64,000 nt of DNA, from contig NZ_CP022098.1 in NCBI RefSeq assembly GCF_002305875.1, forward strand, positions 8,680,001-8,744,000. Reading direction: 5' to 3'. This stretch comes from Cystobacter fuscus (GTDB taxonomy: Bacteria > Myxococcota > Myxococcia > Myxococcales > Myxococcaceae). A program made the translations under genes and the position numbers. Positions 9,329 through 14,851 of the stretch are shown here, piece by piece (within the stretch, counting starts at the first letter, position 1; each line of letters opens with the position of its first letter). The notes beneath the pieces are model-generated. The model had not been told where the DNA came from. It did not search any database and saw only the letters and a list, made by a program, of their open reading frames with translations.

Positions 9329-9939
9329 CGCGGACTCACGGAGCACTGCCCTTCATCGGGCCGATGACGGGGCTCCTGTTGGCGGCGTGCGCGCCGGACC
9401 TGCGCGAGGACTACCCCTTCGATGGACAGATCACCACCGGGCCGCTCGTCGAGGTGACGCTCCAGGAGGACGGCAGCCACGTCGCCCTCATCGACGCGAC
9501 GAACAAGTCCGCCCAGGTCTACTTCGACATCGACGAGGGCCGGGAGATGAAGACCGACGAGGCCCTGGAGAGCAACGAGTGGGACCTGGCCTTCCAGCGC
9601 TTCACCGTCACGATGAATGGAGGCGGAGGCAACCCGGCGGGCTCGGTGCGTGTGGCCGTGCTCCAGGGGCAAAGTTGGGACGCACTCACGGAGGCGCCCA
9701 CCGAGGGCTACCAGCAGGACGCCTCCGAGACGGTATTCAACGGCGCGCAGGGCGGCTGGTACGTCTACGATCTCGTCAAGCACCGCCTCCAGCCGCGCGA
9801 TGAGTTGCTCTACGTGGTGCGCAGCAGCCGCGGGAAGTTCTTCAAGCTGAAGATGCTCGCGTACTACGACGCCGCGGGCACTCCCGCGCGGCCCTCGTTC
9901 CGCTACCAGGAAGTGGCGGCCCCTCCCTCCCCTCCCTGA
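9316..9939 (+). CDS. HmuY-like haem-binding lipoprotein
   Basis: A 207-aa predicted lipoprotein with lipobox 'LLAAC' (Cys25). The body carries features of the HmuY family of surface haem-binding lipoproteins: 'NKSAQVYFDIDEGREM', 'SNEWDLAFQRFTVTMNGG', 'GGWYVYDLVKHRL' and 'LYVVRSSRGKFFKLKMLAYY'. In the family such proteins capture haem and hand it to a TonB-dependent receptor, which matches the upstream gene overlapping this start by 13 nt. The ATG at 9316 is the first codon that gives a signal peptide and lies inside the receptor gene, so translation is likely coupled. The haem-ligating residues cannot be identified by eye. Confidence 0.78.
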   Translation: MGILTRTHGALPFIGPMTGLLLAACAPDLREDYPFDGQITTGPLVEVTLQEDGSHVALIDATNKSAQVYFDIDEGREMKTDEALESNEWDLAFQRFTVTMNGGGGNPAGSVRVAVLQGQSWDALTEAPTEGYQQDASETVFNGAQGGWYVYDLVKHRLQPRDELLYVVRSSRGKFFKLKMLAYYDAAGTPARPSFRYQEVAAPPSPP

Positions 9940-12512: not shown

Positions 12513-12661
12513 GTACTGAATCCCACACGTCATCCGCCGCCGGAAGCGGCTCCTCCGTTTCACTGGAGGAAAAAAACCGGGTGGATTGTCGCGATGGGTG
12601 TCCCTCTCTACTGTTGCCAGGCGAAGTCATACACGCCGTCACAGTCACGCGAGGACGCACC

Positions 12662-13141
12662 ATGATGCCTGCTTCTCAGATGCCCATGCCCATGCAGTCT
12701 GGAATGAACCCGATGATGGGCGGGATGATGCCCATGCCGATGATGGGCATGAACCAGATGCCGATGATGGGCATGAACCCGATGATGGGCGGGATGATGC
12801 CCATGCCGATGATGGGCATGAACCCGATGATGGGCGGGATGATGCCCATGCCGATGATGGGCATGAATCAGATGCCGATGATGGGCATGAACCCGATGAT
12901 GGGCGGCATGCCGATGATGATGCCCATGATGATGCGCATGCCGATGATGTGCCGGATGACGATGGAGATGGGCAAGGACGGCATGATGTGCCGGATGATG
13001 CCCATGGATGCGTCGCAGATGGACATGATGAAGGAGTGCTGTGAGGCGATGAACTCCATGATGGCCATGGGGATGCCGATGATGATGATGTGTAACGGCA
13101 TGCCCATGATGATGGGCACCATGATGGGCCCCACCAAGTAG
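12662..13141 (+). CDS. Methionine-rich repeat protein
   Basis: A 159-aa low-complexity protein in which about 76 residues (nearly half) are methionine by hand count. Residues 15-82 are tandem copies of 'MNPMMGGMMPMPMMG' mixed with 'MNQMPMMG'. The C-terminal half drops the repeat and has Cys in 'MMCRM' (twice), 'KECCEAM' and 'MMMCNGM'. Clusters of Met with Cys can bind Cu(I) or other soft metals, or act as an oxidant sink; either role is inference. No signal peptide is visible. The ATG at 12662 follows a 'GAGGA' ribosome-binding site and is the only start that excludes non-repetitive upstream sequence. Other frames over this repeat are also open but only as by-products of the repeat. A strong hairpin follows. 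Confidence 0.72.
   Translation: MMPASQMPMPMQSGMNPMMGGMMPMPMMGMNQMPMMGMNPMMGGMMPMPMMGMNPMMGGMMPMPMMGMNQMPMMGMNPMMGGMPMMMPMMMRMPMMCRMTMEMGKDGMMCRMMPMDASQMDMMKECCEAMNSMMAMGMPMMMMCNGMPMMMGTMMGPTK
12704..12907 (+). repeat. In-frame tandem repeat, 45-bp and 24-bp units
   Basis: The repeat encodes three full 15-aa units and a partial fourth, with two 8-aa units between them. The copies are almost identical at nucleotide level, including synonymous positions, which indicates recent expansion by slippage or unequal recombination. Unit number is likely to vary between strains. Confidence 0.85.
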
Positions 13142-13235: not shown

Positions 13236-13967
13236 TCAGCCGACCGTTTCCGCGTACGTCATCACCAGGTACATCACCGCGTCCGCGTTGCCGGTGTTCC
13301 GGTAGACATGCGCCACGTCCGCCTCGAACAGGATGGCGTCTCCCGCGTTCAGCACGTGGCGCTCCTCGCCCCGGTCGATCTCCACCGTGCCCGACGTCAC
13401 CACCAGGTTCTCCATGGTGCCCGGCGGGTGGGCGTCCGCCGCCTCCGTCGCGTGCGCGGCCAGCCGCAGCTCGTAGAACTCCACGCGCCGGGGCTCGTCG
13501 AACGGAAAGAGCGCCCGCGACACGAACTTCCCGTCATGGGAGGACAGCCGCTTGGACTGCTGGGAGCGCATCAGGCGGGTGCCCGTCTGGGCCGTGGTGC
13601 TGATCAGCGCCGAGAACGGAATGCCCAACGCCCGGGCAATCTTCCAGATGACGTTGATGGTGGGCGCGCTCTGTCCCAGTTCGATCTGCCCCAACATCGC
13701 CCGGCTCACGCCCGAGGCCTTGGCGAGCCGCTCCAGGGACAAACCCCGCTGGGTGCGCAGCCGACGCAGGTTGCGTCCGACGATGGGCGCCAAGTCCGTG
13801 GACGCCTCCGCGTGCGCGACCTCGTAGGCCCACTCCTCCTCGGAGGTGGGGGCATCGGCCACGGGCGGCTCCACCTTCTTCGCGCTCGACTCCCGCTTCC
13901 GGCCCTTGGCCGGAGCGACCTCGGCTTCCTCCGACGAGGGAGGGGTGTTTTCTCGAACCGATTTCAC
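13236..13967 (-). CDS. XRE-family regulator with C-terminal cupin sensor
   Basis: A 243-aa DNA-binding regulator. Residues about 1-55 are charged and probably disordered. The helix-turn-helix is at about 65-120 ('LRRLRTQRGLSLERLAKASG', then 'IELGQSAPTINVIWKIA'). A cupin barrel fills the C-terminal third ('ENLVVTSGTVEIDRGEERH', 'GDAILFEADVAHVYRNTG'). XRE-cupin proteins usually repress or activate neighbouring catabolic or stress genes on binding a small ligand. The GTG at 13967 is chosen because the TGA of a 45-aa ORF overlaps it (GTGA), implying coupled translation. An ATG at 14129 would extend the same frame through unlikely sequence. The target genes are unknown. Confidence 0.82.
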   Translation of the reverse strand: MKSVRENTPPSSEEAEVAPAKGRKRESSAKKVEPPVADAPTSEEEWAYEVAHAEASTDLAPIVGRNLRRLRTQRGLSLERLAKASGVSRAMLGQIELGQSAPTINVIWKIARALGIPFSALISTTAQTGTRLMRSQQSKRLSSHDGKFVSRALFPFDEPRRVEFYELRLAAHATEAADAHPPGTMENLVVTSGTVEIDRGEERHVLNAGDAILFEADVAHVYRNTGNADAVMYLVMTYAETVG

Positions 13968-14101
13968 GTCGGCCAGACCATGACCCACACCCACACCGGC
14001 GTCCAGCGGTGCATGGGCATGTGTGTCCAGGCCGACGAGGCCCTGGGCTCGCGCCGCTTCCGGAACTCTTCGAGGTTGATGACTTCGGCAGCCTGATTCA
14101 T
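13964..14101 (-). CDS. 45-aa small protein overlapping the XRE-cupin regulator
   Basis: This short frame starts at ATG 14101 and begins 'MNQAAEVINLEEFRKRREPR', a compact charged helix, then becomes Trp/Val-rich ('WTPVWVWVMVWPT') before TGA. The TGA shares two bases with the GTG start of the regulator. A start of this kind ('VINLEEFRKRR') occurs in small myxobacterial proteins as I recall them, but I cannot verify it. It may be a real small protein, or a leader whose translation sets regulator levels. Confidence 0.45.
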   Translation of the reverse strand: MNQAAEVINLEEFRKRREPRASSAWTHMPMHRWTPVWVWVMVWPT

Positions 14102-14243
14102 GAGGAAGTGTCTCCGATAACGGAATCATGTCCGCAGAAGCGGATGCGCGCAATATCCGTTTGAGCGGAGGGACTGTCAATCCGGTCTGGAGGGCAGGCG
14201 GGCACCGGGCGCGTTGGAATAGGCTGCCGGGCCGGCATCCCCC

Positions 14244-14477
14244 ATGTCCGGCCACCCCTTCGATCACCTCCCCGACGTGCGAGACGGCCTCACCCGGGCC
14301 GAGCGCATCATCCTGCACACCCTGCACCGGCTCGAGCAGGAGCGCCCCGGGCGCGCCGTGCCCACCGCGCAGCTCTACGGACACGTCGTCGAGCAGTTGG
14401 ACATCAGTCCCGACGCGTTCCAGGCCCTCCTGTCCCGGCTCGTGGGGCGGCACATGCCTCGGGCGAAGGAGGAGTGA
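14244..14477 (+). CDS. Small conserved-looking protein, unknown function
   Basis: A 77-aa acidic/basic helical protein with no signal peptide or transmembrane segment. Residues 15-75 ('RAERIILHTLHRLEQERPGR' and the following helix) have the spacing of a small winged-helix or three-helix fold. No catalytic motif is visible. Its stop lies 5 nt before the preferred start of the SUI1 gene, so the two form one unit. Confidence 0.65.
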   Translation: MSGHPFDHLPDVRDGLTRAERIILHTLHRLEQERPGRAVPTAQLYGHVVEQLDISPDAFQALLSRLVGRHMPRAKEE

Positions 14478-14482
14478 GGGCC

Positions 14483-14851
14483 ATGGCCAGGAACGACGAC
14501 AAGTCCAAGGGGTTCCACCAGCCCTTCGCCAGGCTCGGGGGTCTGCGCGACGCCCTGCCCTCCACGAAGCCCGAGCTGCGTCCGGAGGACTTCCCCACCA
14601 CCCCACCCGACCAGGGGCCCGAGCGCGTGACGGTGCGCCGGGAGAGCGGCAAGGGCGGCGAGGACTTCACCGTGGTGGAGGGACTGGGCCTGCCCGCGGC
14701 GGAACTCCAGAGCTGGTTACAGGCCATCCAGCGGGGCCTCGCGTGTTCCGGAACCGTGGAGGGAGAGCGGCTGCGGCTCCGGGGAGATCACCGCTTCTCC
14801 CTGCCCGATCTGCTGCTGCGCCGCGGCGTCAAGCGCGTGGTCCAGGGCTGA
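14483..14851 (+). CDS. SUI1/eIF1-like translation factor (YciH type)
   Basis: A 122-aa protein whose C-terminal ~75 residues match the SUI1 fold: 'VTVRRESGKGGEDFTVVEGL', then 'LQAIQRGLACSGTVEGERLR' and 'GDHRFSLPDLLLRRGVKRVV'. Bacterial YciH homologues bind the small ribosomal subunit and affect start selection; their physiological role is poorly defined. The N-terminal ~45 residues are Pro-rich. The ATG at 14483 is preferred because AGGAGG lies about 10 nt upstream; a GTG at 14474 overlaps the previous stop. It is co-transcribed with the 77-aa protein. Confidence 0.88.
   Translation: MARNDDKSKGFHQPFARLGGLRDALPSTKPELRPEDFPTTPPDQGPERVTVRRESGKGGEDFTVVEGLGLPAAELQSWLQAIQRGLACSGTVEGERLRLRGDHRFSLPDLLLRRGVKRVVQG

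Follow-up and report, generated by a model that had tools for sequence, protein, structure and literature searches.

A predicted small-protein family with a Trp-rich tail encoded together with XRE-cupin regulators in a putative myxobacterial sulfur regulon

Introduction

Regulators combining XRE and cupin domains have been described in Pseudomonas, where, according to passages of PMC7901475, ErfA, PauR and PsdR are repressors that use palindromic sites, have metabolic targets and in some cases regulate themselves. The main text of that paper contains 0 occurrences of 'sulf' and of 'small protein'. An XRE-family regulator of sulfur utilization, SutR (YdcN), was reported in E. coli (Yamamoto 2015, as cited in parts of PMC8464067 and PMC11332829). 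In Bacillus subtilis, the gene for SinI (57 aa) lies beside that of the XRE repressor SinR, and SinI disarms SinR by direct binding (excerpts of PMC3163267). Met-rich seed storage proteins serve as a methionine reserve in plants (excerpts of PMC3420316 and PMC7419676).

Here, we analyzed a locus of Cystobacter fuscus in a 64,000-nucleotide stretch of DNA (contig NZ_CP022098.1; the window), in which a 45-codon frame overlaps an XRE-cupin regulator gene that is followed by a convergent gene for a Met-rich protein. The regulator resembles the Pseudomonas repressors, as excerpted in PMC7901475, in its XRE and cupin domains and putative palindromic sites, and 1Y9Q, the template used to model those repressors, is its best PDB match too; however, its predicted regulon is scattered, whereas those described there are mostly local. 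With SutR, likened by description in the cited excerpts only, it shares the XRE family, a palindromic motif and a predicted sulfur role. We know of no small protein or Met-rich protein co-encoded with SutR. Like SinI, which has a stand-alone relative in SlrA, the small protein is encoded next to an XRE regulator. SinI forms a hook of two helices and has residues in common with SinR, whereas the small protein has two short end motifs; its low-confidence AlphaFold2 model shows one short helix and no hook, and no Pfam SinI match was found. The likeness of the Met-rich protein to the excerpted plant storage proteins lies in the methionine reserve, a storage role that is proposed for the bacterial protein. 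Among the titles and abstract openings of the literature searched, we found no description of the small protein, the operator or the Met-rich protein.

The small frame and its overlap with the regulator gene

The small frame, defined by ORF scan and homologue alignment (13964..14101, minus strand), translates as MNQAAEVINLEEFRKRREPRASSAWTHMPMHRWTPVWVWVMVWPT followed by a stop codon. A Shine-Dalgarno-like GGAG (14112..14115, minus strand) is predicted 10 nt 5' of its ATG. As stated in a preliminary description of this DNA, which was based on the letters alone, its TGA (13966-13964) shares two bases with the GTG start (13967-13965) of the regulator gene, forming a GTGA overlap (13964..13967, minus strand). 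The regulator (243 aa, 13236..13967, minus strand) matched HTH_3 (E 1.1e-16) and Cupin_2 (E 4.9e-13) in Pfam, both over the cut-off, in agreement with its earlier designation as an XRE-cupin protein; none of its 13 Pfam hits (E up to 1) was to a TPR family, the receptor type of RRNPP/Rgg peptide signaling.

The Trp-rich end noted in that description was evident, with four of the five Trp residues located within the last 13 positions. The well-formed amphipathic helix (NLEEFRKRR) that it had proposed received weak support: AlphaFold2 modeled residues 10-16 as helical (pLDDT of about 60), followed by an extended tail (pLDDT 74-77), in a model with no confident fold (mean pLDDT 62.9). The protein has no transmembrane-length segment, the highest 19-residue GRAVY being 0.27. 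No Pfam family matched above its gathering score; the sole match seen was DUF4169 (PF13770), below the cut-off (E 0.017; 15.8 bits, cut-off 25), which resembles 14 residues of the N-terminal motif and falls short of the Trp tail.

Conservation and selection

The 7 kb scanned contain 65 ORFs with 30 or more codons' worth of protein (aa), and because short frames abound in GC-rich DNA, the frame alone proves nothing; it is raised above chance by its conservation. A search with the 45 residues in 39 genomes (its own and relatives) found full-length homologues, plus many weak matches at E 0.05 to 1 that are probably due to chance. We then used a 13-row profile (E 0.01 or better) on 96 family and 195 phylum genomes, scoring part of the first-look candidates. 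The profile matched 29 of the 96 family genomes, and the same 29 among the candidates scored in the phylum set. One match (G012) was spurious, sitting within a 538-aa frame, and was removed, and a frame found by hand in G048 was added, giving the total of 29/96 used below; the G048 frame was found because the Met-rich gene is present there. A scan of named genomes detected seven loci, in Archangium lansinium, A. violaceum, Hyalangium versicolor and a Myxococcaceae MAG.

Comparison of 37 distinct copies showed that both ends are kept (A-x-VI-x-L-x-x-FRKRR and WxPVWVWVxVWP), with a variable linker between them. In the 26 regulator-linked copies, pN/pS was 0.14/0.55 for the first 18 columns, 0.42/0.51 for the linker and 0.12/0.41 for the last 14, with dN/dS of 0.32. 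Within the Trp tail, Val and Pro codons vary synonymously between the Trp codons, which themselves cannot vary. A frame test on 11 equal-length pair sequences gave pN/pS of 0.45 for the small-ORF frame and 1.26 and 0.88 for the other two forward frames; the antisense frames gave 0.55, 1.47 and 0.84, one of them being nearly as low as the small-ORF frame.

A chance ORF was rejected in view of the selection on the frame and the stop/start overlap (RTGA) that persists in 26 loci. Most likely, judging from these sequence comparisons, the 45 codons encode a real, selected and conserved protein, with its translation predicted. The preliminary description, which had allowed for a genuine small protein, is thus borne out by purifying selection on both ends, synonymous changes in the tail codons and stand-alone homologues (see below). 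It had suggested checking conservation in relatives, and had named an unconserved frame with a regulator starting elsewhere as grounds for abandoning the idea; the frame is kept in the 29 family genomes, and the GTG start agrees with a (M/V)KSVREN sequence found at the regulator start in 26/26 pair loci and in 0/20 regulator loci that lack the small frame.

Pairing with XRE regulators and stand-alone copies

The small frame overlaps the orthologue of the window's regulator by RTGA in 26 of the 29 small-protein genomes, and an XRE-type regulator gene adjoins a small-protein copy in all 29 (the 26 pairs, G106, G110 and G048). The homologues of G106 and G110 are diverged and overlap another XRE regulator, by GTGA in G106 and at a less clearly defined start in G110. 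This regulator is 35% identical to the window's over 147 residues, has no Pfam cupin hit and was found in just 2/96 genomes (E 1e-25). G048 carries a further diverged frame (VVDLATFRRQRE ... WPPMWVWCWV), which ends where a second copy of the regulator starts. The same seven of 27 genomes in genus g39 carry both small protein and regulator. In sister genera the regulator was found without a recognizable small ORF, at 20 distant loci (16 of the family and four of other families). Here and below, the co-occurrence counts for small protein, regulator, operator and Met-rich gene ignore phylogeny.

An N-terminal extension of the regulator contains WAYEVAH (13812..13832, minus strand), a weak candidate for a contact segment. 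WxYE is present in 25/26 pairs vs 0/20 loci without the small frame, the one miss (L130) carrying WAYE followed by DM. The MKSVREN/WxYE extension may be a docking site for the small protein, a suggestion kept as weak because the groups compared coincide with clades and neither motif is present in the secondary regulators of G106, G110 and G048.

A second, stand-alone copy of the small protein occurs in 13 genomes. In the 11 examined, the -4 frame behind the copy spans at most 75 codons, and no further regulator match was detected in these genomes at E 1e-60. Since these copies have no regulator, the small protein would act at least partly in trans, and the frame does not appear to be merely a leader. 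A RiPP or secreted signal was rejected, with no conserved maturation genes by the stand-alone copies and no signal-like N-terminus (by eye), as was the toxin of a toxin-antitoxin pair, with no antitoxin-like neighbor noticed by these copies (by eye).

The convergent Met-rich protein

The gene convergent to the regulator (12662..13141, plus strand; predicted start codon, in an ORF that opens at 12581) encodes 159 aa, 76 of which (48%) are Met. The 28 proteins of this type contain 38-50% Met (mean 45%) and 3-7 Cys, and neither of two scanned matched a Pfam or NCBIfam family. In a search of the 96 family genomes, the Met-rich gene was detected in all but one of the small-protein genomes (28/29) and in 0/67 others; the exception is G042, where the contig stops 1.3 kb past the regulator. 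The gene lies directly behind the regulator in 24/26 pair loci; it is 5 kb away in G039, and G042 is the other exception. Of the 20 loci without the small protein, 18 had sufficient DNA to be scanned (one regulator was unlocated and one contig had ended), and none of the 18 had the gene in this position. An initial hint from neighbor clustering, that little is conserved besides the regulator, was discarded; clustering had missed most Met-rich genes, probably through low-complexity masking. In G106 and G110, the Met-rich gene and the small protein are on different contigs. The phylum search also revealed Met-rich genes without a recognized small protein in two genomes of family f5 (G140 and G141), the G140 copy being convergent to the regulator.

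The candidate operator and the predicted sulfur regulon

Upstream of the small frame, a putative promoter on the minus strand consists of a -35-like TTGACA (14175..14180; TTGACA or TTGACG in aligned relatives) and a -10-like GATATT (14152..14157) with a 17-bp spacer. A candidate operator of the form TCCG-N6-CGGA, TCCGCTCAAACGGA (14156..14169, minus strand), is located between them and overlaps the -10 by two bases, and a second, TCCGCTTCTGCGGA, lies at 14131..14144 (minus strand). By sequence, TCCG-N6-CGGA is present upstream of 26/26 pairs, with two copies in 20 of them, and the first copy usually sits between the TTGACA/TTGACG and the -10. The regulator would thus have a palindromic operator in its own promoter, a trait of XRE-cupin proteins. 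The sequence was also found 85-119 bp upstream of 12/12 stand-alone small-protein copies examined (the 11 above and L103; the second copy of G039 is outside this set), near the start of 11/20 regulator orthologues without the small frame, and within 300 bp upstream of 13/28 Met-rich genes of the family (12 at 108-133 bp and that of G013 at 168 bp), where several sites misfit the stricter YTNNNR core. The Met-rich genes of G140 and G141 each have a site about 120 bp upstream; none was found within 300 bp upstream of the window's own Met-rich gene.

A loose pattern, TCCGYTNNNRCGGA, occurred 1.3 to 2.3 times as often as its reversed control in five genomes (20+16 vs 13+11 in G000), so many loose sites must be chance occurrences. 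The strict palindrome TCCGYTATARCGGA was found in 28/96 genomes, compared to 1/96 for the reversed control. It was present in 27 of 44 regulator-bearing genomes and absent from the other 17, vs 1 of 52 genomes without the regulator (Fisher 3e-11, kinship ignored). The sole strict site in a genome without the regulator (G100) precedes an ABC-exporter-like gene (by eye).

We placed all 51 strict sites, in 48 loci, by neighbor gene. Representatives were checked with NCBIfam or Pfam, and the rest were classed via blastp clusters or by reading the neighbor. Sulfur genes accounted for 23/51 (8 sbp, 6 cysH, 1 cysD, 2 cysK, 4 metN-like, 1 SsuA-like and 1 YeeE-type), a count favored by the assignment of sites between divergent genes to the sulfur gene. 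The MetN and SsuA neighbors scored below NCBIfam cut-offs, whereas MetI beside MetN passed; the metN neighbor in G016 is about 520 bp from its site (read by eye). Of the other sites, 5 were next to beta-carbonic-anhydrase-like genes, 11 next to Porin_O_P-like genes and 2 next to another outer-membrane-like gene without a Pfam hit; 6 were in the regulator's own promoter, and 4/51 had no clear class or fitting neighbor. No metal gene was recognized among the classed neighbors. A looser site alongside metY falls outside the strict set.

In 30 genomes, of which 8 had no sbp match and 6 no cysH match and were dropped from the respective comparison, a site within 500 bp of sbp was present in 6/13 regulator-bearing genomes vs 0/9 without the regulator (weak, p 0.02), the positives being confined to the window's genus and that of Archangium; for cysH the figures were 2/15 vs 0/9 (not significant, p 0.38). 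Neither sbp nor cysH had a site in the three regulator-bearing g39 genomes, although G085 had one by cysK. Because the operator lies beside sulfur genes and its strict form tracks the regulator, control of sulfur assimilation is the most likely role of the regulator, with binding and control predicted from sequence. The link to sulfur appears strong as a whole, with the membership of each gene varying by genus.

The beta-carbonic-anhydrase-like genes with a strict operator occur in five genomes (2463-2957 in L300, 2325-2906 in L291, and three more loci). Clade D beta-carbonic anhydrases have a COS hydrolase from a fungus among their relatives (excerpt of PMC8209446); this kinship would fit these operator neighbors, which are possibly COS or CS2 hydrolases for sulfur gain. 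The Porin_O_P-like outer-membrane gene (3087-4397 in L292, and nine other loci) was the commonest strict-operator neighbor, at 11/51, and is perhaps a sulfate porin.

Proposed function and alternatives

We tentatively favor the small protein as a peptide partner of the regulator, and probably of the Met-rich protein, in a sulfur-assimilation module, the sulfur role of which appears well supported by the operator neighbors. Largely unfolded, it would be made together with the XRE-cupin regulator, probably through translational coupling. The regulator likely represses at TCCG-N6-CGGA, including the two sites over its own promoter, and more small protein and regulator would therefore be expected in sulfur shortage. 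With its fixed ends and loose linker, the small protein looks like a bivalent peptide: one end would contact the co-made regulator and tune it, and the Trp tail would probably also meet the Met-rich protein through Met-aromatic contacts, as composition suggests, thereby linking the regulon to the state of a putative methionine (sulfur) reserve. Among possible targets, we place the regulator first, alone or together with the Met-rich protein, and the Met-rich protein by itself second. The complete three-part reserve is an unlikely elaboration: a cytosolic store of up to 50% Met, the XRE-cupin regulator of sulfur uptake and assimilation, and a bivalent peptide with a second copy elsewhere in the regulon, whose Trp tail would sense on the Met-rich protein how full the store is and whose other end would signal this to the regulator. 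If the Met-rich neighbor is a reserve, methionine would be stored in these bacteria in a protein dedicated to this purpose, served by a regulator and a peptide partner of its own; we know of no such means of buffering sulfur supply elsewhere. The 45-codon frame becomes a testable small-protein family tied to a predicted myxobacterial sulfur regulon.

It is rather unlikely that the Met-rich protein is the sole target of the small protein, which would then serve as its chaperone or as an adaptor passing the methionine store to a protease in sulfur shortage, with proximity to the regulator merely coupling expression. In genera g5 and g16, where the regulator orthologue is present in 13/13 genomes, small and Met-rich proteins occur together in G106, G110 and G048 only, which speaks for this reading, and the two genes are on different contigs in G106 and G110; however, a copy adjoins an XRE regulator gene in 29/29 genomes, and the two f5 genomes carry the Met-rich gene without a recognized small protein. 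Copper or oxidant handling, instead of a sulfur reserve, as the purpose of the Met-rich protein and the regulon would fit the 3-7 Cys and the frequent binding of Cu(I) by Met-rich stretches, but is doubtful, since the classed strict-operator neighbors are mostly genes for sulfur uptake, reduction and Cys/Met synthesis and porins, with no metal gene recognized. We consider it quite improbable that the small protein is an effector of the sulfur regulon that, in the manner of SgrT-type small proteins, targets a transporter or enzyme at the membrane: its Trp tail is hydrophobic, stand-alone copies lie behind the same operator sequence, and transporters and porins are found by the operator, but a transmembrane-length segment is lacking and the sulfate-binding protein is also present in genomes without the small protein.

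The preliminary description had also considered a translational control element. Excerpts of PMC12548453 give NTGA (-4) as the commonest spacing of overlapping gene pairs, one that couples well, and spacings of -4 to +3 as those that couple best. With RTGA in 26/26 pairs, coupling is likely because the overlap is conserved. That the act of translation alone matters, through coupling or charged-tRNA sensing, is very improbable given the protein-level selection on both ends, the stand-alone copies in 13 genomes and the nature of the conserved repeated residue, which is Trp and not Cys or Met. A pure leader or attenuator was rejected on the constraint beyond sensing codons, these copies and the lack of an Rfam match at gathering score in 13800-14400. 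Thus, the coupling part of that suggestion stands and its exclusive form does not; a small protein and translational coupling are compatible.

Additional genes near the small-protein and operator loci

Divergent from the small frame in the window are two genes on the plus strand (14244-14477 and 14474-14851), encoding a 77-aa protein and a SUI1-like protein (by eye), which recur in two and three, respectively, of nine clustered pair loci, in the window's genus and that of Archangium only. In four genomes (cluster c5), the stand-alone copy has immediately upstream of it a gene for a small exported-looking protein with EEWVWVPAP (9451-9843, minus strand, in L137). At six loci, a membrane Ser/Thr-kinase-like gene (by eye; 2647-4266 in L197, and five others) lies on the other side of the operator, opposite sbp or the porin gene.
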